From positions 1 through 49,882 of the forward strand of contig NZ_HG424441.1 of the NCBI RefSeq assembly GCF_000336385.2: a stretch of DNA of 49,882 bases, given 5' to 3'. Below the pieces are notes generated by a model that worked only from the letters and a program-made list of their open reading frames with translations, was not told the DNA's origin and made no database searches. The DNA comes from Lysobacter antibioticus HS124 (GTDB lineage: Bacteria > Pseudomonadota > Gammaproteobacteria > Xanthomonadales > Xanthomonadaceae). Shown one piece after another: positions 12,456-22,910 of the stretch. Numbering within the stretch: position 1 is the first letter of the stretch; each line of letters begins with the position of its first letter. The position numbers were made by a program, and so were the translations under genes.

Positions 12456-14750
12456 TCAGTCATATTCTATGCGTAAGCGGATCATTCCGATTCCAAGCTT
12501 GCGTACGTCCGCGCTGACTCCAAGCCGCTGCGGAGATATCGGCGCCGCCGGAATGAACTCGATGGCGTTGGTGGATTCGCCAACCAAGTCGACAGGCAAT
12601 CGCACTTCCTTGCCATCTCCGCCGATTCGTAAGGCATAGCTTTGAGTCCCTATTTTGACGACCACTTTGTCGTTCTCGGGCTGGAATGCTCGGGCCGTCA
12701 GTATTAGGGAGAACTTCTTAGGCAGCGGCGATATAAGCTCCAACTTGACGCTTGGAGCGATGTTGGCGTCAGACCAGCGCCCCCATTGCTCACGTCCTGA
12801 GAGCCCTGTTGCGTCCTTGACGAAATAGGGCCAGCCGTCCTTGGAAAAATCGACTCCCTCCTTGAACGCGAGCCGCTGGGGGGCGCGCGTGGACTCGCCG
12901 GCTGCTGCGGGGATGGGGCTGGAGTTCGAGTCATCTGCCGGCTGCGCGGCATCGTGCTTTGTCGGGCCGAACTTGAAGAAAATGATTTCCCCGTCGGTTC
13001 GCGACAGGGCTGCCTTAGAGCCGTAACGTGCGGTTAGCTGTGCTAAGAGTGTGTCCGCATGGTCAGCGAAACCGCGGCGATCGATGTAGATGCCGGCAAA
13101 TCCCATGCGCTCGACAACTTGGAGTTGTGTGGCCAGTGGTTGGCTGGCGAGCGTCCTATAAAACAGGTCTCCTTTGCGACCTTTCATTCCTCCGAAACTC
13201 CAGTTCAGCGCCTTTGAATGCAAGAACCCGATGGCGAGCTCATAGCTGACCAATTGGTGCACCGGCGAGGATTCCGGGAACGGCATGTAGGGAAGCTGGT
13301 AGATTGCGCTGCCAGGGGGCAATTGCCGTTCTATTTTGGCTATAAACTCGCGATCTTGATCGAACGCCTGTTCTACCTGCACGTTACAGGGTCGGCAGAC
13401 TGGGGTGGATTGATCGTAAAGTCCCAAGGATCCTAGCGCCAAGCCGCAGCAGCCCAGCGTCAGTCGGCGCTTTGACGTGGGTACAAGGCGCGCAGTGAGG
13501 ATCTGTATTGCTAGGAAGCAAAGCGAGATCGAGGCGAAGGCGATGAAGACGCTGATGCGGTTCCAGCCACGAATAGACGCGGAGATTGTGGACGAAAAGA
13601 GCGTGCCTAGGCCACCGATGGTGCCGAAAGCGAATAGGACCAGGGCTAATAAGGTTAGGAACGCCAATCTTTGGTCGGTGCTGCCTCCGGAAAGCCGAAT
13701 CAGCAAGATCGCCCCAGCCAAAAGAAATCCTACTGTTCCGAGCGCGCCCAGCGTGGCGGTCGAATTTTCGTTCACCAACGGAAAGCTGGCCCGATAGGTG
13801 TTTCCTATCGCCGCCAAACGCGGAACGCGATGATCGGCTCGAGGCAGGATGAGTTGCATCATCTTAAGCCCGTAAACTTCTGACTCCACCGGCGATCTGG
13901 CTGCGACCTCGGGGTTAGGGCCGTTAGCCGCTCTGTTCGCCAGGCTGGGCGCAAGGTTCAGCATAGTGCCAATCACAATCAATGCGATAGCGCCGACGGC
14001 AGGAAGCGCAACCGTCGCAGTGCGGTTTCGGATGCCGGCTGCTGCTCCGGCGATGCTAAGGACAATAATACCGAAAAACGCGTAATAGACGCCGAAGCAG
14101 GCCAGTAGGATTAAGCTGGCGCAGATGGAGATGAGCTTGCAGGGTCCCAGGGTCTTCAGGTTCCCAGACGGTTCTGCAAAAAAAATCCGCAACCCGACAT
14201 AAAAGAAGAGCGGTACAACAAAGTACCAGGTGTAGAAAAGATGCGGCAGCCTAAGGAAATGAAAAGGTAGAAAAGCAAACGCAAGCGACGCGCTAGCTGC
14301 CAGGTTGCGAGACAGTCCCAATGTTCTGAGCACGCAGAACGCGGCGATGAACGTCGCTGGAAAACCCAGTAGGAAGTAGAGATTGAAAGCCGACTGATAG
14401 CTGCCGGTAATGGCGCCAAGCAGTTTCAGCAACGCGAGGTTGGCTGCGTCTGAGTTTGGATAGTCGAGAAAGTTCGAACCAAATGGGTAGCCGTTGCGGG
14501 GATTATCCGATAGCCAGCCCTCCATGACACGCTGGATCATCCAAGAATGGCTCAATCCATCGCCGGAATAGATGTAAGGATAGTTCAGGTTCGGCAGCAA
14601 ACCTTCAGGCCATCCTGACATTAGAATGCTGGCGAGTACGAAGCTGAAGATCGCTCCTAGCGACCACCACCTCCAATCGGATGCAAACACGCCTCGTATC
14701 GACGCAGGCCTGAAGGGCTGTAAAGGAGGCTGGGCGATTTGTGGCTTCAT
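12456..14750 (-). CDS. wxcO: Large multi-spanning membrane protein, probable GT-C glycosyltransferase for O-antigen branching
   Basis: A 764-aa inner-membrane protein with about ten hydrophobic segments between residues 28 and 450 and a soluble C-terminal part (about 460-764). After the first membrane segment comes YIYSGDGLSHSW (D64), followed by NFLDYPNSDA (D96, D101); acidic residues in the first outer loop are usual for GT-C enzymes. It is the last gene of the minus-strand set and overlaps the GtrA-like gene by four bases. Position and size match WxcO of X. campestris and the serotype-specific third protein of Gtr systems, so it probably transfers the amino-sugar from undecaprenyl phosphate to the O-chain in the periplasm. 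Base composition is clearly more AT-rich than the flanks. The symbol is given by synteny. Confidence 0.65.
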   Translation of the reverse strand: MKPQIAQPPLQPFRPASIRGVFASDWRWWSLGAIFSFVLASILMSGWPEGLLPNLNYPYIYSGDGLSHSWMIQRVMEGWLSDNPRNGYPFGSNFLDYPNSDAANLALLKLLGAITGSYQSAFNLYFLLGFPATFIAAFCVLRTLGLSRNLAASASLAFAFLPFHFLRLPHLFYTWYFVVPLFFYVGLRIFFAEPSGNLKTLGPCKLISICASLILLACFGVYYAFFGIIVLSIAGAAAGIRNRTATVALPAVGAIALIVIGTMLNLAPSLANRAANGPNPEVAARSPVESEVYGLKMMQLILPRADHRVPRLAAIGNTYRASFPLVNENSTATLGALGTVGFLLAGAILLIRLSGGSTDQRLAFLTLLALVLFAFGTIGGLGTLFSSTISASIRGWNRISVFIAFASISLCFLAIQILTARLVPTSKRRLTLGCCGLALGSLGLYDQSTPVCRPCNVQVEQAFDQDREFIAKIERQLPPGSAIYQLPYMPFPESSPVHQLVSYELAIGFLHSKALNWSFGGMKGRKGDLFYRTLASQPLATQLQVVERMGFAGIYIDRRGFADHADTLLAQLTARYGSKAALSRTDGEIIFFKFGPTKHDAAQPADDSNSSPIPAAAGESTRAPQRLAFKEGVDFSKDGWPYFVKDATGLSGREQWGRWSDANIAPSVKLELISPLPKKFSLILTARAFQPENDKVVVKIGTQSYALRIGGDGKEVRLPVDLVGESTNAIEFIPAAPISPQRLGVSADVRKLGIGMIRLRIEYD

Positions 14751-15172
14751 CGTGTCCGGCTCTCGTCAGAACGTTGTTTGTCAACCAAGGCGCCGGCTTT
14801 GCGGAGCACGAACTTGTTCATCAGATAAGTTATTGGAACCATCGCTGCGGTCACGATTAGCGGCCCTAGCGATTCTGGGACATGGGCAAATTCGATTATT
14901 ATTGCCAGAAGTGCCGCCGACGCTGCGTACTGGACGATATAGACGATAGGATAGGCCAGCAGTCCCTTCCACGACATCGGTACTTTGAACACGAGAGTCG
15001 AATTGACCCAGTACGCGAACAGGATGCCAAGCGCGTAAGCGATCAGGTAGGACACCTGATAGCTCATCAACGTGTTGAGTGCTAGGTAAACTGTGTAAGT
15101 GAAACCCGTGTTCGCGACGCCTCCGACCAGGAAGCGCAACCAGCGCTTGGTCTGGAATCGAGGTTCGATCAT
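14747..15172 (-). CDS. wxcN: GtrA-family membrane protein (lipid-linked sugar translocase)
   Basis: A 141-aa protein with four hydrophobic segments, typical of GtrA/DPMS-like proteins (start [20 protein letters not shown], end [11 protein letters not shown]). GtrA proteins are thought to flip undecaprenyl-phosphate-linked sugars to the periplasm. It overlaps both its neighbours by four bases. It probably works with the GtrB-like transferase (16119-17069) and the large membrane protein downstream. The symbol follows the gene order of X. campestris wxcK-O. Confidence 0.8.
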
Positions 15173-16122
15173 CGCTGGGACGCTTCGCGGCGCGCCAGTT
15201 TCATAAATTCGGAATAGTCTCGAATATAATCGTCGGCTTCGTACGGATGCGATGCGAACACCAGTAGAACAGCGTCGCTGGAGTATTTGTATTGAATGCC
15301 CCAGGTCATCGGCGGCAAGTATATGCCCTTGTCGGGCGAATCCAACAGCACCTCACAGCGGGACTCGCCGTCGTCGGCCACGACCGCGCAACTGCCTTTT
15401 ACGCAAATCAGGAACTGTTCGCAGTGATGGTGCGCATGCTCGCCGCGAGTCTTTTCGCTGGGAACGTCAAACACCAGGAAATAGCGCTTTGGTTCGAACG
15501 GAATGTCCTTGGGGAACTCGCCGACGGTCAGCGCGCCTCGCATGTCTTGGACCGATTTGAAGCGGTGCAAGGTGACTCCCTTTACCCCCACGGAAACGAT
15601 CGATGGGCCGCTGTCCGGATTGCTGTTGGTCGTTTTTTCGTTAGGCGCTGATGCGTTCTCTACGTAACCGGCAATGCGCGCTGGCGAGCCGTAGACGATG
15701 GCGTAGGGTGGAACAGACTTAGTTACAACCGCGCCGGCGCCGACCATCGCATGGCGGCCGATAATTACCCCTGGCAGTATCACCGCTCCGCCGCCGACCG
15801 ATGCTCCGGTTTCGATATGGGTTTGAAGAAACCGATCCGGATAGACTTTTGAGCGTGGAAACTTGTCGTTAGTGAACGTCACGTTGGGGCCGATGAAGAC
15901 ATCGTCCTCCACGCAAATGCCGTCCCACAGGTATACGCCGGACTTGACGGTGACCCTATCGCCGATTACCACGTCGTTCTCGACAAAGGTATGGGCGCAT
16001 AGATTGACGTCGGCGCCAATGCGAGCGCCAGCTAGAACTACTGCTGACTGCCATATCGTCGTGCCCGCGCCGATTTGCGTGGTCTGCACGTCCGCGGTTT
16101 CATGGATCTTGACATTGTTCAT
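15169..16122 (-). CDS. wxcM: WxcM-like fusion: sugar N-acetyltransferase plus dTDP-4-oxo-6-deoxyglucose 3,4-ketoisomerase
   Basis: A 317-aa fusion. Residues 1-155 are a left-handed beta-helix acetyltransferase with hexapeptide repeats (for example [20 protein letters not shown]) ending in [10 protein letters not shown], like FdtC/QdtC. Residues about 175-312 are a FdtA-type cupin (the 'WxcM-like C-terminal' family) with the histidine-rich [11 protein letters not shown] active-site segment. The enzyme can do two non-consecutive steps, 3,4-ketoisomerisation of dTDP-4-oxo-6-deoxyglucose and later N-acetylation of the 3-amino sugar; the aminotransferase at 17057 does the step between. The product is dTDP-Fuc3NAc or dTDP-Qui3NAc; which isomer cannot be decided here. 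RmlA and RmlB, needed upstream, are not in the window. Four-base overlaps on both sides. Confidence 0.88.
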
Positions 16123-17069
16123 TGCGGTTCCCGATCGTTGGCGTGTTTCATGCTTACTACGGCGAGGGGGCGTTGTTTGCTGTTTTCATATCCTCGCCAA
16201 GCGTAAGTACCAACCAGCCCAAGTCCCAATAAATTCAGTGTGCCGAAAAACAGGACGACTAACATGGTTGCGGCGTAGCCCGGTACAGCGATGCGCCCGC
16301 TTAGCGATGCGATCAATACGATCGCGCCCAGCACAAATGACAAGGCTGATCCCGCCGCGCCAGCACGGATCAGTAGTTTGATGGGGTAGTCGGTGAAGGC
16401 GAACACGCTATCCATCATGTATTCGACTTTCTTGCGCAGAGTCCAAGCTGATTTTCCGTGCTCGCGCTGGAGGCGCTCATAGCTGACCAACTTGCGTCGG
16501 AAGCCCAGCCAGAAGATCAATGCGATCAGGGACGAGCGCGATTCCTCCAGCCGCAACAGCTGATCTCGGAAGATCTGGTTACACCCGAACACGTCCACGC
16601 CGCCTTCCGGCATTTCGCGCACTACCAAGCGACGGTACAGCCCCCAAAACAGGCCCGAGGCCATTCGGGACAGCAGCGGATCCTTGCGGCCTGTACGCGT
16701 TCCGATCGCAACGTCGCATTGGTCGGATTCCAGCGTCTTGAAAAAGGTGATCAGCAGTTCCGGCGGCTCCTGTAGATCGGCCGCCATGACCCCGAAATAA
16801 CGGCCACACGCCGCTTCGAGCCCGGTGCGGATCGCCGGGAACGAGCCGAAGTTACGCGAGTGCGCCAACAATTGTGCGGGAAATTCGAGCCCGTCCAGCG
16901 CTGCGCTCAGCAGCGCGTACGACTGGTCAGGGCTGCCATCGACGACGAAGACTGCTTCCATTCTTCCGCTCAGCTCGCGGTTCATGGTTGCAAGTGTCAG
17001 CAGCAGCTGAGGAATCGACCCTTCGTTTTTGTAGACCGGGATGACCGTGCTGAAAGTTACGGTTGCCAT
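16119..17069 (-). CDS. wxcL: GtrB-like GT2 glycosyltransferase (undecaprenyl-phosphate sugar transferase)
   Basis: A 316-aa membrane-anchored GT2 enzyme. The N-terminal GT-A domain has [25 protein letters not shown] and the acidic motif [11 protein letters not shown]. Two hydrophobic hairpin segments at about 228-290 anchor it in the membrane as in GtrB/DPM1 relatives. It probably loads the 3-acetamido-3,6-dideoxyhexose from dTDP onto undecaprenyl phosphate for flipping by the GtrA-like protein. Its start overlaps the aminotransferase gene by 13 bases and its end overlaps wxcM by four. Donor specificity is inferred from the neighbours. Confidence 0.83.
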
Positions 17070-18151
17070 GAGTTAACGCTCGCAACGACTTGTTCGATTT
17101 GCGCGTCGGTCATTTCCGGATAACAGGGGAGGGTCAGGATTTCCACCGCCAGACGCTCGGTGTTCGACAAGCGGACATCGGCGTAGCGGTCGCCGAATAC
17201 CGGCTGGCGATAGTCGGGGACTGGATAGTGGATATCCGACGCGATGCCCTGCGCGCGCAAGTGCTGCCGCAAGGAGTCGCGCTGCGCGCTGCGCAATACG
17301 TACAAATGGCCGACGTATTCCGGGCCCGCGGCGGCGGGCGGTTCGACTTGTGGATGGCAAATGCCGGCGTTGTAGCGCGCGGCGATTTCGCGACGGCGCT
17401 CGTTTCCGGCGTCCAAGCCCGGCAGGAACGTGGACAGAATCGCGGCCTGCATTTCGTCCAGTCGGGTGTTGCGTGCGCCGTCGAATTCCACGTTGTACTT
17501 GTCGGTCCAGCCGTACTGGCGAAGGCGGCGGATGCGTTCGGCGACGTCGGCGTGCCGAGTGGTCGCAGCACCGCCGTCGCCAAGGGCGCCAAGGTTCTTG
17601 GTGGGATAGAAGCTGAAGCTGGCAGCGTCGCCGAAGGTGCCAACCATGCGGCCCCCGACCTGCGCGCCATGGGCTTGAGCGCAGTCTTCGAGCAGCTTTG
17701 CGCCGCTGCCGGCGCAGAGTTGGGCGATCTGGGAGATTTCCGGGGTCGCTAGGCCATAGAGGTGGGTCACCACGACGAACCTGACGCCGGCGGCGATTGC
17801 ACGTTCGACTTCGATGAGCGAGACGTTGCGGGTATTCAGGTCGACGTCGAGGAAGAACGGCTCGGCGCCGATAGCTCGCACCGCAGTAGCGGTGTACATG
17901 CCGGCGTTAGCGACAGTGGCGACCTTATCACCGGGGCCAACGCCGAAAGCGCGCAACGCCAGTTCGATGGCGTCGGTACCGTTGCCCACACTGACGCAGT
18001 ACTCGACGCCCAGGTACTGAGCGAAGGCCGATTCGAACTGCTTCACTTCGGGACCGAGCACCAACCAGCCGCTGGTAAGCACGCGCTGGATCGCACCTGT
18101 GATCGCCTGCTCATTGGCCTTGATGCGGGCGGAAAGGTCGTTGATTTGCAT
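17057..18151 (-). CDS. wxcK: DegT/DnrJ/EryC1 sugar aminotransferase (FdtB/QdtB-like)
   Basis: A 364-aa PLP-dependent aminotransferase of the DegT family. K185 in FYPTKNLGALGDGGA is the PLP lysine, D156 in LLEDCAQAHGA contacts the ring nitrogen, and VGNGTDAIEL binds the phosphate. The start MQINDLSARIKANEQAI and the genes downstream point to amination of dTDP-3-oxo-6-deoxyhexose at C3. First gene of the five-gene minus-strand set; the start has a purine-rich GAAGTGAGAG upstream. It is normal in length and retains all key residues. Confidence 0.88.
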   Translation of the reverse strand: MQINDLSARIKANEQAITGAIQRVLTSGWLVLGPEVKQFESAFAQYLGVEYCVSVGNGTDAIELALRAFGVGPGDKVATVANAGMYTATAVRAIGAEPFFLDVDLNTRNVSLIEVERAIAAGVRFVVVTHLYGLATPEISQIAQLCAGSGAKLLEDCAQAHGAQVGGRMVGTFGDAASFSFYPTKNLGALGDGGAATTRHADVAERIRRLRQYGWTDKYNVEFDGARNTRLDEMQAAILSTFLPGLDAGNERRREIAARYNAGICHPQVEPPAAAGPEYVGHLYVLRSAQRDSLRQHLRAQGIASDIHYPVPDYRQPVFGDRYADVRLSNTERLAVEILTLPCYPEMTDAQIEQVVASVNSWQP

Positions 18152-18370: not shown

Positions 18371-19312
18371 TCAGGCCAACGCCGCTTCCAACTCCGGCAA
18401 CAGCTTGAACAGATCGCCGACCAGGCCGATATCGGCGATCTCGAAGATCGGCGCGTCGCCGTCCTTGTTGATCGCGACGATGGTGCCGGCGTCCTTGATC
18501 CCGGTCAGGTGCTGGATCGCGCCGCTGATGCCGACCGCGACGTACAGCTCGGGGGCGATGATCTTGCCGGTCTGGCCGACCTGCAGTTCATTCGGCACAT
18601 AACCGGCGTCGACCGCGGCGCGCGATGCGCCGACCGCCGCGCCGAGCTTGTCGGCGAAGTCGTAGATGATCTTGAAGTTGTCCGCCGAGCCGACGCCGCG
18701 GCCGCCGGAGACGACGCGCTTGGCGCTCTGCAGGTCGGGACGGTCGGACTTGCCGGCGGCCAGGCCCCGGTAGCGGGTGTGGCTGGGCAAGGCGACGTCG
18801 ACCGGCGCGGCTTCCACCGCGGCGCTGCCGCCCTTGCCGGCTTCCGGCCAGGACGCGGTGCGCACGGTGGCGACCACGGCGTGATCGGCCGGCGCTTCGA
18901 CGGTGACGATGGCGTTGCCGGCGTAGATCGGGCGCTTGAAGGTGTGGCTGCCTTCGATCGCCATCACGTCGGAGACCTGCGACACGCCGAGCAGGGCCGC
19001 GACGCAGGGCATCAGGTCCTTGCCGAAGGTGGTCGAGGGGCCGAACACGTGGCTGTAGCCCTTGCCCAGCGCGGCGATCTGCGGCGCCTGGACCTGGGCG
19101 ATGGCGTCGGCGTTGGCGGCGTTGGCCACGGTCAGCACGCGGGCGACGCCGGCGATCTGCGCGGCTTCGGCGGCTACGCCGGCCGGATCGGCGGCGAGCA
19201 CGACGATGTCGATGGATTCGGGTTTGAGCGCCTGCGCGGCGGAGACGCACTTGGCGGTCGAGGCGTTGAGCTTGCCTTGCAGGTGTTCGGCGACGATCAA
19301 AACCTTACTCAT
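18371..19312 (-). CDS. etfA: Electron transfer flavoprotein alpha subunit
   Basis: A 313-aa subunit of the heterodimeric ETF that collects electrons from acyl-CoA and other dehydrogenases. The C-terminal FAD domain shows [45 protein letters not shown] and the final [20 protein letters not shown], all hallmarks of EtfA. The start [10 protein letters not shown] is chosen at 19312, where ATG overlaps the etfB stop by one base (TGATG). Electrons pass on to ETF-QO, encoded at 27183-28835. In xanthomonads etfA is the conserved right flank of the O-antigen locus. Confidence 0.97.
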
Positions 19313-20058
19313 CACAGCAACCCCTTCTGCTTCAGTGCGGCGACCAGTTCGGCCGCGTCCTTGACCATCACGCCCTTGCTGCGCTTCGCCGGCGGTGCGT
19401 AATGGGTGGTTTTCAGCGTGTCGCCGGTGTCGACGCCGAGCTCGCCGAACTGGATCGTTTCCAGCGGCTTGCTCTTGGCCTTCATGATGTCCGGAAGCTT
19501 GATGAAGCGCGGCTCGTTGAGGCGCAGGTCGGTGGTGACCACCGCCGGCAGATCCACTTCCAGGGTTTCCAGGCCGGCGTCGACTTCGCGCACGACCGTG
19601 GCCTTGCCGCCTTCGACGTCCAGCTTGGAGGCGAAGGTCGCCTGCGGACGGCCCCACAGGGTGGCGAGCATCTGCCCGGTCTGGTTGGCGTCGTCGTCGA
19701 TCGCCTGCTTGCCGAGGATGACCAGGTCCGGCTGCTCCTTCTCGATCAGCTTGAGCAGGGCGCGCGCGGCGGTCAGCGGCTGGATCGGCTGCTCGCTGAC
19801 CACGTGCACGGCGCGGTTGGCGCCCATGGCCAGGCCGTTGCGCAGGTGGGCCTGGGCGTCGGCGGGGGCGATCGTCGCCACCACGACCTCGGTGGCGATG
19901 CCCTTGTCGCGCAGGCGCAGGGCTTCTTCCAGGGCGATTTCGTCGAACGGATTGGCCGACAGCTTGACGCCGTCGGTGACCACGCCGGAGTCATCCGGCT
20001 TGACCTGAATGCGGACGTTGTAGTCCACCACGCGCTTGTAACCGACGAGGATCTTCAT
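19312..20058 (-). CDS. etfB: Electron transfer flavoprotein beta subunit
   Basis: A 248-aa EtfB with the typical start MKILVGYKRVVDYNVRIQVK, the AMP-site region (VVVATIAPADAQAHLRNGLAMGA) and the C-terminal ETF-beta signature around VTTDLRLNEPRFIKLPDIMKAKSKPL. It forms the ETF heterodimer with EtfA, encoded directly downstream and translationally coupled. AAGGAAC lies just upstream of the start on the minus strand. Confidence 0.97.
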   Translation of the reverse strand: MKILVGYKRVVDYNVRIQVKPDDSGVVTDGVKLSANPFDEIALEEALRLRDKGIATEVVVATIAPADAQAHLRNGLAMGANRAVHVVSEQPIQPLTAARALLKLIEKEQPDLVILGKQAIDDDANQTGQMLATLWGRPQATFASKLDVEGGKATVVREVDAGLETLEVDLPAVVTTDLRLNEPRFIKLPDIMKAKSKPLETIQFGELGVDTGDTLKTTHYAPPAKRSKGVMVKDAAELVAALKQKGLL

Positions 20059-20114: not shown

Positions 20115-20501
20115 GCGGAGACGGGGCTGTGGGGGCAGTGCACGCGGATCCGCTGTATCACGCGGCGAAGGGGAGGCAAATGGGGGGGCTCGGTTGAAAG
20201 ATGAACCTCGGCCAAGTAGTTCCACCGAGCAGGCTGGTGGCTGAAGAGCTGAACAGGAGGTTGCGGCCTCTGTGGATAACGTGGTGGGGCAGGCTTGAGG
20301 CGGTACGGGGCGGCTTCAGTCTGGTTTTCGATGACTGTCTTTCCCAGGACGGTTGGACTGTGGCCGTCTCGCAGCGAGGGCCGCGCAAATGCCGCGTATG
20401 TCGCTTGATCGTTGCGTGTTGTCGCGTCGCAGGATGTGCGCACCGGATGGCCTAATCTTCATAAGACGCTCTATAAGGCGCTCTGCTCGCAACCGAATGT
20501 T

Positions 20502-20508
20502 AAGGAGG
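20502..20508 (+). promoter_or_regulatory. Strong ribosome-binding site of the tailspike-like gene
   Basis: AAGGAGG is a near-perfect anti-16S match placed six bases before the ATG at 20515. It decides that start over the ATG at 20509, which directly abuts it, and over a long in-frame extension back to 20353. Few genes in this window have so strong a site. Confidence 0.8.
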
Positions 20509-20514
20509 ATGGCT

Positions 20515-22089
20515 ATGATCAATATTTCCGATAGGGACAGTGTCATTGCTTCTGCTGATGGTACTGCTGAGGACAAATCAACAGAGCCTCAAGCTGCAGT
20601 CGGGAGTTTAATGTCGCCCGAGAGCTCTGCCGAGATAGGGTTTATTGGCGGCGCGAGTGCAGGTGCCGGGACTGTACAGGCCGAACTGCGAGAACGCGCG
20701 AGCATTGCGGACTTCGGTGCGGTCGGCGATGGCTTGGCAGACGACACGGCCGCAGTGACGTCGGCGATCGCGTTCGCGCTCGACAATAATGTGCGTTATC
20801 TATTTGTTCCGTCAGGCGTTTATCGCTTGACAGCGCCGATAGTTATCGGTGGAAGCCTGTGGCTTGACGGCGATGGCGTAGAACCTTACGAAGGATTCAG
20901 TCCCGGTCCGGGGCCCAACCAGCGAGGCGGAGGCTCTTGGTTCTTTCTCGATCATGCCGGCAAAGGCTTCATCCTTCAGCGTCCATCGGTTGGCAATAGT
21001 GCGAGCGGCATCTCGATATCGTGGCTGGGGACCTTCCGCGCTCATACGGTCGGCGCACCGGGGACTACGTTCGTTCCCACGGTATACGACTACGATTTCA
21101 CGGTTGATGACGCGGATGCGCTTTTCGACAACGTTACGTTGCTAAATGCCTACAATGGCATCCAGGTGCTCAACGGCAATGCCGGCCGCTTGACCACGAG
21201 CAACTTACGTGGACAGCCGCTCAATATTGGCATTTTTATAGACCAAGCCTACGACGTTGTAAGAATAACGGATACGCATTTCTGGCCTTTCTGGTCCCAG
21301 TCCGAAGATGTGGCAAAATATCAGCTCAATCACTCTCGTGCGATCGTTTCCGCGCGCAACGACAATCCTTTGATCGTCAATTTGTTCTGTATCTTCTACA
21401 AGATCGGATTGCATGTCGTAGGCAACGGTTTCGGCACCACTAATAAGTTGAAGCTGGTGAATGCGGACTTTGATCGCGGTCAGTATGGTATTTATGTGGA
21501 GCCATCCGCGGTCGGGCATACCGGCATGTATACCAACGTAACCGCACAGGGTGAGGTCGGATCGCTCGCGACCTTTGCGAGCAACAACTCTGGTGTTTCG
21601 GTCAACGCGATTAATTGCGTCATGAATTTTTCCGGGCTGGATTTGGCGGAGCATCGGGGCCCAAGTCTTGACGCGAACGCCGCCGGTATCGAGTTGAACG
21701 TGGCCCAGCTTCAAGCTGGAAACTGGAATGGTTCGGGGCTCGGATTCGGCTGTGTCCAGGCGGCCTCGGGCGCCGTGGTGGAAATTAGCGACCGGCCGAA
21801 ATTTTTCGGTGGCGGAGGAGCGGCGGTATTTTCCGGAAACGGAGAAATCTCCGCGCCGTTGCGCGCAGGTACATCGAGTGCAAACACGGACGCGAATGGC
21901 GACGTCGTAATTACGCATAATTGCCCAATCACCCCGCGTAAAATCTTCGTGACGCCATCCAATTCCGTCGGGCTGATTTGCACGGTTCGCGCCCGTGGTC
22001 CGACGACCTTTATCGTGCGGCTATTCGATTCTGCCGGGAACGCGTGGGCCTCGGGAGACGCAAAATTCGACTGGAAAGCCGAATACTGA
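20515..22089 (+). CDS. Pectate-lyase-like beta-helix protein resembling a phage tailspike
   Basis: A 524-aa protein without a signal peptide or membrane segment. Residues 1-50 are Ser/Ala/Glu-rich. At 53-80, TVQAELRERASIADFGAVGD is the joint seen in phage tail-fibre/tailspike proteins just before a Pectate_lyase_3 beta-helix (GDGLADDTAAVTSAIAFAL, then VPSGVYRL). Residues about 70-450 have the repetitive Asn/Gly-rich strands of a right-handed beta-helix; 450-524 looks like a separate beta-rich end domain. Such proteins often cut or bind surface polysaccharide. It stands alone, 456 bases from etfB and converging on the mutarotase gene 11 bases away, beside the O-antigen locus and with lower GC than its flanks, suggesting transfer. 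Other phage genes are absent. It could be an O-antigen-active enzyme or a secreted glycan protein; substrate unknown. Confidence 0.72.
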   Translation: MINISDRDSVIASADGTAEDKSTEPQAAVGSLMSPESSAEIGFIGGASAGAGTVQAELRERASIADFGAVGDGLADDTAAVTSAIAFALDNNVRYLFVPSGVYRLTAPIVIGGSLWLDGDGVEPYEGFSPGPGPNQRGGGSWFFLDHAGKGFILQRPSVGNSASGISISWLGTFRAHTVGAPGTTFVPTVYDYDFTVDDADALFDNVTLLNAYNGIQVLNGNAGRLTTSNLRGQPLNIGIFIDQAYDVVRITDTHFWPFWSQSEDVAKYQLNHSRAIVSARNDNPLIVNLFCIFYKIGLHVVGNGFGTTNKLKLVNADFDRGQYGIYVEPSAVGHTGMYTNVTAQGEVGSLATFASNNSGVSVNAINCVMNFSGLDLAEHRGPSLDANAAGIELNVAQLQAGNWNGSGLGFGCVQAASGAVVEISDRPKFFGGGGAAVFSGNGEISAPLRAGTSSANTDANGDVVITHNCPITPRKIFVTPSNSVGLICTVRARGPTTFIVRLFDSAGNAWASGDAKFDWKAEY

Positions 22090-22100
22090 GGTACGGTGAT

Positions 22101-22910
22101 TCAGCATCCCCGGTTGGATTGGACTGTGAGAATCTGCGCCCCGGTCCAGGTCTGACCGGGCTGCAACCTCACCGGCTGCAGCACCTGTGCGGCCTCGACG
22201 CAGACGAAGCGGCGGTACCCGTCGGGTTCCAAGTCGGACAGGCCTGCGGCCAGTTCGGCGCCGGGATTCCACACCACGGTGTCGGCGAAGCCCTCGGCTT
22301 CGAAGCGCAGCATATGCTCGCCGTCGGTGACGCGCAGCAGGCGACGGGTGTCGGCGTAGATGCGGTCGACCTCGCCGCCGAAGCGCACCGGTGCGCCGCT
22401 GGGCGGGCAGGGCGCGCCGCCGCGCGCGGAGTCGATGTAAGGCCGGTCTTCCAGGCCGTGAACCTGGGTCTCGGCGATGTCGCCGACAGCCAGGTAGGTA
22501 TGCAAGGCGGCGCTGAACTCGAACGGGTCGGCATCGGCGTTGTGCACGGTCAGGGTGATGCGCAGGCGGTCCTCGCCGGGTTCGACGTCGAGCTCCGCCC
22601 CGAAGCGGTAGGGCCAGTGGCGGCGGGTTTCCTCGCGATCGCGCAGGCGAAAGCGTAGACGTTCGGGGTCGGGCTCGGTTTCCCAGGTGAGGGTGCGCGC
22701 GAAGCCGTGCCGCGGCCCGGGGCCGCGCGCGGCGAACTGCGGAAAGATCACCGGCACGCCGCCGCGGATCGCCGCGCCAGAAACGTCCGCCCGCGGGCTC
22801 AAATACAGGCGTTCGCGGCCGCGGCAATGCCAGGACAGCGCCTGGGCGCCGAACGCGGTGGCTTCGACTCGGCTGTCGCCCGGGCCGCTCATTAATAATG
22901 TGTTGTGCAT
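22101..22910 (-). CDS. D-hexose-6-phosphate mutarotase / aldose-1-epimerase-like protein
   Basis: A 269-aa member of the galactose mutarotase-like (YeaD) family that interconverts anomers of hexose 6-phosphates. Recognisable pieces are the FGAQALSW start, RGGVPVIFPQF (substrate phosphate side), the HGFARTLTWE histidine segment, TVHNADADPFEFSAALHTYLAVGDI with the second catalytic histidine, and VVWNPGAE. The start at 22910 fits the family N-terminus (SRVEATAFGAQALSW). It stands divergently from xanB, 134 bases apart, and converges with the tailspike-like gene. A role in feeding sugar-phosphates to nucleotide-sugar synthesis is plausible but not shown. Confidence 0.85.
   Translation of the reverse strand: MHNTLLMSGPGDSRVEATAFGAQALSWHCRGRERLYLSPRADVSGAAIRGGVPVIFPQFAARGPGPRHGFARTLTWETEPDPERLRFRLRDREETRRHWPYRFGAELDVEPGEDRLRITLTVHNADADPFEFSAALHTYLAVGDIAETQVHGLEDRPYIDSARGGAPCPPSGAPVRFGGEVDRIYADTRRLLRVTDGEHMLRFEAEGFADTVVWNPGAELAAGLSDLEPDGYRRFVCVEAAQVLQPVRLQPGQTWTGAQILTVQSNRGC

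Follow-up and report, generated by a model that had tools for sequence, protein, structure and literature searches.

A tailspike-like gene of phage kinship in a variable chromosomal slot beside the lipopolysaccharide locus of Lysobacter antibioticus

The etfB–mutarotase slot and its contents

The first 49,882 nucleotides of contig NZ_HG424441.1 of Lysobacter antibioticus HS124 (the window; genome G000) contain a gene for a 524-residue tailspike-like protein, situated between etfB and the gene for aldose 1-epimerase (mutarotase). The protein is kin to phage tailspikes and collinear with tailspikes of phages and prophages, its gene resides in a variable slot beside the lipopolysaccharide (LPS) locus, and the spread of the slot gene has not been simply vertical. 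We think it probable that a phage tailspike gene was captured here and has been kept as a stand-alone chromosomal cargo gene.

The open reading frame (ORF) is uninterrupted over all 524 codons and is preceded by a Shine-Dalgarno-like AAGGAGG. Its composition is supported as foreign: the guanine-plus-cytosine (GC) content at third codon positions (GC3) is 0.61, against 0.79–0.92 in etfA, etfB, the mutarotase gene, and manC. PADLOC and NCBIfam searches of the protein gave no match, and no Rfam match was found near the gene. Scans of 10 flanking products against PHROGs, and of the neighbors against Pfam, revealed no phage structural gene next to the tailspike gene; three products (a hexapeptide protein, in families of unknown function, a GtrB-like protein, and an aminotransferase) matched PHROGs, none of them structural. 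Signs of a prophage remnant (other phage genes, an integrase, or a tRNA site) were not found near the gene; phage-type gtr genes lie beyond etfA. The tailspike gene is just outside a metB–etfA LPS locus (metB, wzm, and wzt named by eye) resembling that of xanthomonads, where this locus is a known hot spot of transfer (PMC2238763). The initial annotation had described an orphan gene with no phage gene next to it, lower in GC than its surroundings, equipped with a strong ribosome site, and placed just outside the O-antigen cluster; this description held.

The etfB and mutarotase genes are close together in all 20 genomes of the genus searched, and the gap between them varies. It measures ∼157–367 bp in 11 genomes (an empty slot), 1.0–1.1 kb in four that carry a gene we call X (DNA identity 82%–92%), 2.05 kb in G000 and its conspecific G149, which carry the tailspike gene, 3.8 kb in a second species (G016), which carries both the tailspike gene and X, and 5.3 kb in G012 and G015. 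The initial annotation had proposed looking for homologues at this position, and the one in the second species is 80% identical. The tailspike gene occupies the slot in three of the 20 genomes, two of them of one species.

The variable stretch reaches beyond etfB in this genus. Pfam matches in the ∼5-kb insert of G012 identify a DegT aminotransferase, a family-2 glycosyltransferase, GtrA, and a GtrII-type protein, and an acetyltransferase–FdtA-like fusion was recognized by eye; the insert of G015 is likened to a gtr cassette by its gap size and a GtrA match inside the gap alone. The gtr cassette of the window also has a low GC3 (0.65–0.78), and its GtrB matches phage O-antigen-conversion families (E = 4.9e-54). 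The side of etfAB on which comparable gtr/FdtA-type cassettes are found differs between species, as in the window and in L094 (4161–9173). A GtrA gene was found within ∼8 kb of etfB in 12 of the 20 genomes, comprising the three tailspike carriers and nine of the 17 non-carriers; a pairing of tailspike and gtr genes was rejected, as three of three would arise by chance with a probability of 0.19 (calculated by hand) and two of the carriers belong to a single species. The product of gene X (∼199 residues), which alternates with the tailspike in the slot, has hydrophobic N-terminal stretches by eye and no match in Pfam or PADLOC.

Table 1. Features of the window and related loci
Feature	Location	Strand	Remarks
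Solo tailspike-like gene	20515..22089	+	524 residues; disordered N-terminus 1–59, right-handed beta-helix ∼61–445, C-terminal beta domain ∼450–524 (low-confidence model)
Shine-Dalgarno-like AAGGAGG	20502..20508	+	ends 6 nt 5' of tailspike ATG
Fiber-to-helix joint (residues 54–80)	20674..20754	+	common to phage tailspikes and bacterial beta-helix proteins with twin-arginine-like leaders
Family core, candidate active-site face	21253..21474	+	D247, D283, D320, and H255 around HFWPFW motif
Approximate extent of the insertion, compared with empty slots in the genus	20125..22128		GC 0.565
etfB	19312..20058	-	left border of variable slot
Aldose 1-epimerase (mutarotase)	22101..22910	-	right border of slot
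gtr-type O-antigen modification cassette	12456..18151	-	low GC; DegT aminotransferase, GtrB-like glycosyltransferase, hexapeptide–FdtA, GtrA, large DUF7024 membrane protein
Gene X	L035 7363–7962		same slot in L098, L099, L084, L093
PF12708-type beta-helix proteins with joint and twin-arginine-like leaders	L036 7397–9016; L102 7283–8947; L103 6154–8202; L106 6856–8412; L107 8148–9791; L100 1659–3527		leaders by eye

Kinship with phage tailspikes

Residues 54–474 of the window protein are collinear with, and 37% identical to, the 477-residue tailspike of an uncultivated phage (L118; IMG/VR 3300032218_000876), which has a similar C-terminal domain by eye; it differs from the window protein in being encoded among phage structural genes (neighbors were read as portal, structural, and capsid genes). 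The prophage tailspike of G1008 (L246 9226–11208) resembles the window protein from the joint to the C-terminus (its residues 201–658, of 660, align with 57–523 at 31.5%) and differs by an N-terminal adaptor; a neighboring gene encodes a 2224-residue product in phage family PHROG 9880. Residues 58–320 are 35% identical to gp27 of Burkholderia phage BcepMigl, the best viral fold match. This protein and the Bcep22 pectin lyase-like proteins (PHROG 32881) share the beta-helix core with its HFW motif; they differ in their longer N-terminus, their C-terminal domain (by eye), and their position in a virion gene block. Homology to proteins of phage virion regions extends over most of the length. A viral scan, of which the best 80 of 389 relatives were kept, gave mainly joint-only matches.

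In a tree of 18 rows, the two slot proteins (window and G016) belong to a 10-row group (96/97), whose other members are four phages, one prophage, one satellite-like element, and two further solo genes. Outside it, and weakly placed, are the solo gene of G319, three other phage sequences, and a Rhizobium plasmid sequence. Three exported-looking bacterial relatives (L031, L248, and L249; leaders by reading) form a separate group (100/99). The kinship with phage tailspikes proposed in the initial annotation is thus upheld by the homologues, the tree, and the predicted fold described below.

The protein matches PF12708 at residues 63–122 (E = 7.7e-8) and PHROG 32881 ("pectin lyase activity") at residues 55–447 (E = 3.8e-34). 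An AlphaFold2 monomer model folds residues ∼61–445 as a right-handed parallel beta-helix, mostly with confidence (mean pLDDT 73); in the fold comparison suggested by the initial annotation, it matches other beta-helix enzymes as well as it does tailspikes. In family alignments, D247, D283, and D320 are invariant and H255 is invariant or nearly so, and these four residues may constitute the active site. The GDGLADDTAAV motif and the fiber-to-helix joint both lie within residues 54–80. The joint alone is not diagnostic, because it recurs in beta-helix proteins of this genus that begin with twin-arginine-like leaders and resemble the window protein in that part only. Several such PF12708-type proteins, with leaders recognized by eye, occur in genomes of the genus, including one in the window's own genome (contig 84).

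A PHROG scan identified no virion adaptor family at the N-terminus of the window protein, whereas the tailspikes of L228 and L246 do match adaptor families. Residues 1–68 have no match among 50,697 phage records at E values up to 1, and the N-terminus of the G016 homologue has no phage match either. The N-terminus of the L118 spike, in contrast, is common to many phage spikes (among 80 loci, the match spanned the full length in three and was confined to the first 102 residues in 76). Its ∼45–100 residues precede differing remainders (L264–L339) and are likely a short docking module.

No export leader is evident on reading of the window protein or of the G016 homologue, in line with the earlier statement that no signal peptide is seen. 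A crude hydropathy measure agrees for the window protein (0.96, a low value) but gave 1.62 for the G016 homologue, which is not below the twin-arginine controls (1.45 and 1.62), and so is decisive for neither. These data bear on the idea of a secreted polysaccharide-degrading enzyme of bacterial descent that uses a non-classical export route. The leaders of L031, L248, and L249 in the wider family and the many beta-helix proteins with twin-arginine-like leaders that the genus encodes speak for such an origin; since the three relatives group apart and neither slot protein has an evident leader, we regard it as the least probable of the explanations considered here.

Movement of the slot gene and other solo copies

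In G016 the tailspike gene lies among duplicated pieces of the flanks, in the order etfB, tailspike gene, C-terminal mutarotase fragment, N-terminal etfB fragment, X, and full mutarotase gene. The mutarotase fragment by the tailspike gene is nearest to G006 and G007 (84%–85%). The genome's own mutarotase gene is nearest to G003 (94%), and each of five pieces of its full etfB–etfA stretch has its closest match in G003 or G001 (95%–99%). We infer that foreign DNA recombined homologously on one side, with an illegitimate junction on the other, and left this patchwork. Between the window and G016, synonymous divergence (dS, NG86) of the tailspike pair is 2.01, a saturated value, compared with 0.19 for etfB, 0.21 for etfA (rough, as the listed etfA frame overlaps etfB), and 0.56 for manC; nonsynonymous divergence (dN) of the pair is 0.125, giving a dN/dS of ∼0.06. 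Because its dS is far above that of the flanks, the two copies are not simple vertical descendants, and simple vertical inheritance at the slot was rejected.

Of 395 family genomes, 11 matched the family profile at E values of 1e-15 or lower, and in six the match was full length (G000, G149, G016, G319, G1008, and G945); in G1012 an apparent prophage holds a long partial match. A looser profile matched 44 of 397 order genomes at 1e-8, mostly in the joint only, and added G318 and G367 at full length. Among 369 genomes of the class, three matched: the window's own genome and two with exported-looking homologues. We found neither a widespread, vertically inherited secreted enzyme nor, in the model, a fold lacking a beta-helix, the two outcomes that the initial annotation had set against its proposal.

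Solo tailspike genes occupy four sites in the order, namely the etfB slot and sites in G319, G945, and G318; this count leaves out the joint-only matches (G003, G871, G014, G940, and a second one in G945) and all weaker ones. No phage genes were seen around the G318, G319, and G945 copies when translated ORFs within ∼5–10 kb were read, and of nine chosen neighbors, four matched PHROG families, none labeled structural. G945 offers the nearest counterpart: residues 3–506 of its protein (506 residues from the chosen ATG) align with 156–660 of the G1008 tailspike at 66% identity. The part missing from G945 is the 155-residue adaptor (PHROG 1640 at residues 1–120); residues 1–139 of the G1008 protein are 42% identical to Xanthomonas phage tail fibers. 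A diverged duplicate (75%) of the end of the neighboring gene lies ∼130 bp before the G945 gene. The G318 gene is 98 bp from a tRNA-Ser gene and may belong to an island; no tRNA-end repeat of at least 15 bp was found in the 19.9-kb stretch. Approximately 2 kb from it, a 792-residue AAA protein (L229 5386–7764) matches candidate defense family PDC-S06 (E = 4e-237). A search of titles and abstract openings, with preprints and most subscription papers outside its scope, returned no account of solo adaptor-less tailspikes in the host's order.

A different arrangement is seen in G367, where a 14.3-kb element (L228 1091–15429) is bounded by a repeat of a tRNA-Thr gene (40 bp or more) and encodes an integrase (by eye), a Prim-Pol/AAA protein, a small terminase, and a full tailspike with adaptor. 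Reading revealed no capsid, portal, or large terminase, so the element is satellite-like with its own tailspike.

Possible roles of a virion-free tailspike

The initial annotation raised a link of the gene to O-antigen type and suggested remodeling or a tailocin part among its possible uses, none of which found support. The 819-residue O-antigen glycosyltransferase of the window cluster was not found in the carrier G016; at E = 1e-20 it occurs in four of the 20 genus genomes, G000, G149, and, as partial matches of 32%–34%, G005 and G001. A wzm-like permease is present in 19 of the 20, the G016 copy being 51% identical. G016 may nevertheless have a partly similar O-chain, as several metB-side LPS genes, including that for GDP-mannose dehydratase, are shared with the window at 48%–88%. 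Several points count against a host enzyme that remodels its own O-antigen or exopolysaccharide. The O-polymer is completed outside the cytosol, whereas the protein has no evident export signal; its gene is carried by few genomes of the genus and does not follow the glycosyltransferase, and the tree groups it with phage proteins. We consider this role very improbable.

A part working in trans, a spike that a separate prophage, satellite, or tailocin in the same cell borrows for receptor binding, appears hardly more probable. The satellite-like element of G367 has a family member, and G149 and G016 match both Baseplate_J and Terminase_6N. G000 matched neither of these two families (183-contig assembly; other phage types were not searched; controls match in three and six of 14 genomes), which leaves a contractile tailocin unsupported there even though the conspecific G149 has both. 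The window protein also lacks a recognizable adaptor, and its N-terminus is without a phage match.

The main rival is a recent passenger, a phage tailspike gene brought into a permissive intergenic slot by illegitimate recombination, functionless and too young to have decayed. We judge it possible, at clearly lower odds than capture and retention. The low GC3, the insertion of one gene, its rarity in the genus, and the patchwork junction in G016 suit a passenger, as does the promoter search (no sigma-70-like site near the gene, with 1.1 expected in shuffles). The intact frame with its strong ribosome site, its integrity in two species at a low dN/dS (with a partly phage history), and the occurrence of solo genes at three more sites across the order argue against one.

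Like the promoter result, several observations weigh against a retained, virion-free enzyme. The G000 and G149 genes differ by one nonsynonymous nucleotide, which does not demonstrate selection on the chromosomal copy, and the low dN/dS of the window–G016 pair may reflect purifying selection in phages before capture. The C-terminal domain is poorly modeled, Foldseek TM-scores against solved structures are low (0.24–0.42), and epimerases and lyases score equal to tailspikes. The tree is midpoint-rooted. One of the four solo proteins, that of G319, can be aligned with the G1008 tailspike along its entire length (26%) and so retains a prophage-like N-terminus; it is the one placed outside the 10-row group with weak support. 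The L118 tailspike, too, starts almost at the joint, a short N-terminus being common to many phage spikes, so the absence of a long adaptor is no proof that docking is out of reach for the window protein, which may have a short docking peptide.

With these points taken into account, we still favor capture of a phage tailspike gene, with beta-helix and C-terminal domain intact, no recognizable virion-docking domain, and no evident leader. Judged from sequence, a cytosolic, virion-free enzyme of tailspike type that meets glycan only after lysis is the likeliest state. The protein would fold into a cytosolic trimer capable of cutting surface polysaccharide and would encounter its substrate only when the cell lyses, whereupon it could strip phage receptors from neighbors or attack them, unless the gene is a recent passenger after all. 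Two further known proteins can be compared. The Sf6 tailspike, an O-antigen endorhamnosidase, is virion-bound and 17% identical to the window protein. ElmA, the K5 lyase of E. coli K5, is a tailspike-type capsule lyase encoded in a bacterial chromosome, and differs in being a heparosan lyase. Its origin is tabulated as "prophage" (PMC3594737).

A broader proposal is that solo adaptor-less tailspikes are a recurrent weapon or defense: cytosolic depolymerases freed by lysis of infected or damaged cells would strip the glycan receptor from neighbors, and thereby block glycan-dependent phages, or expose competitors, with gtr genes at the same LPS borders possibly serving as the immunity side through alteration of the producer's glycan. 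The data are compatible with this combination of lysis release and gtr immunity, which we nevertheless consider unlikely. Tailspikes are normally known as virion parts; the recurrent capture of one family of them as single chromosomal genes, once with precisely the adaptor lost, would, if true, be a route by which bacteria acquire soluble polysaccharide depolymerases. The slot by the LPS locus, in which the tailspike gene, gtr serotype-conversion genes, and gene X alternate, allows selection at LPS borders to be tested directly.
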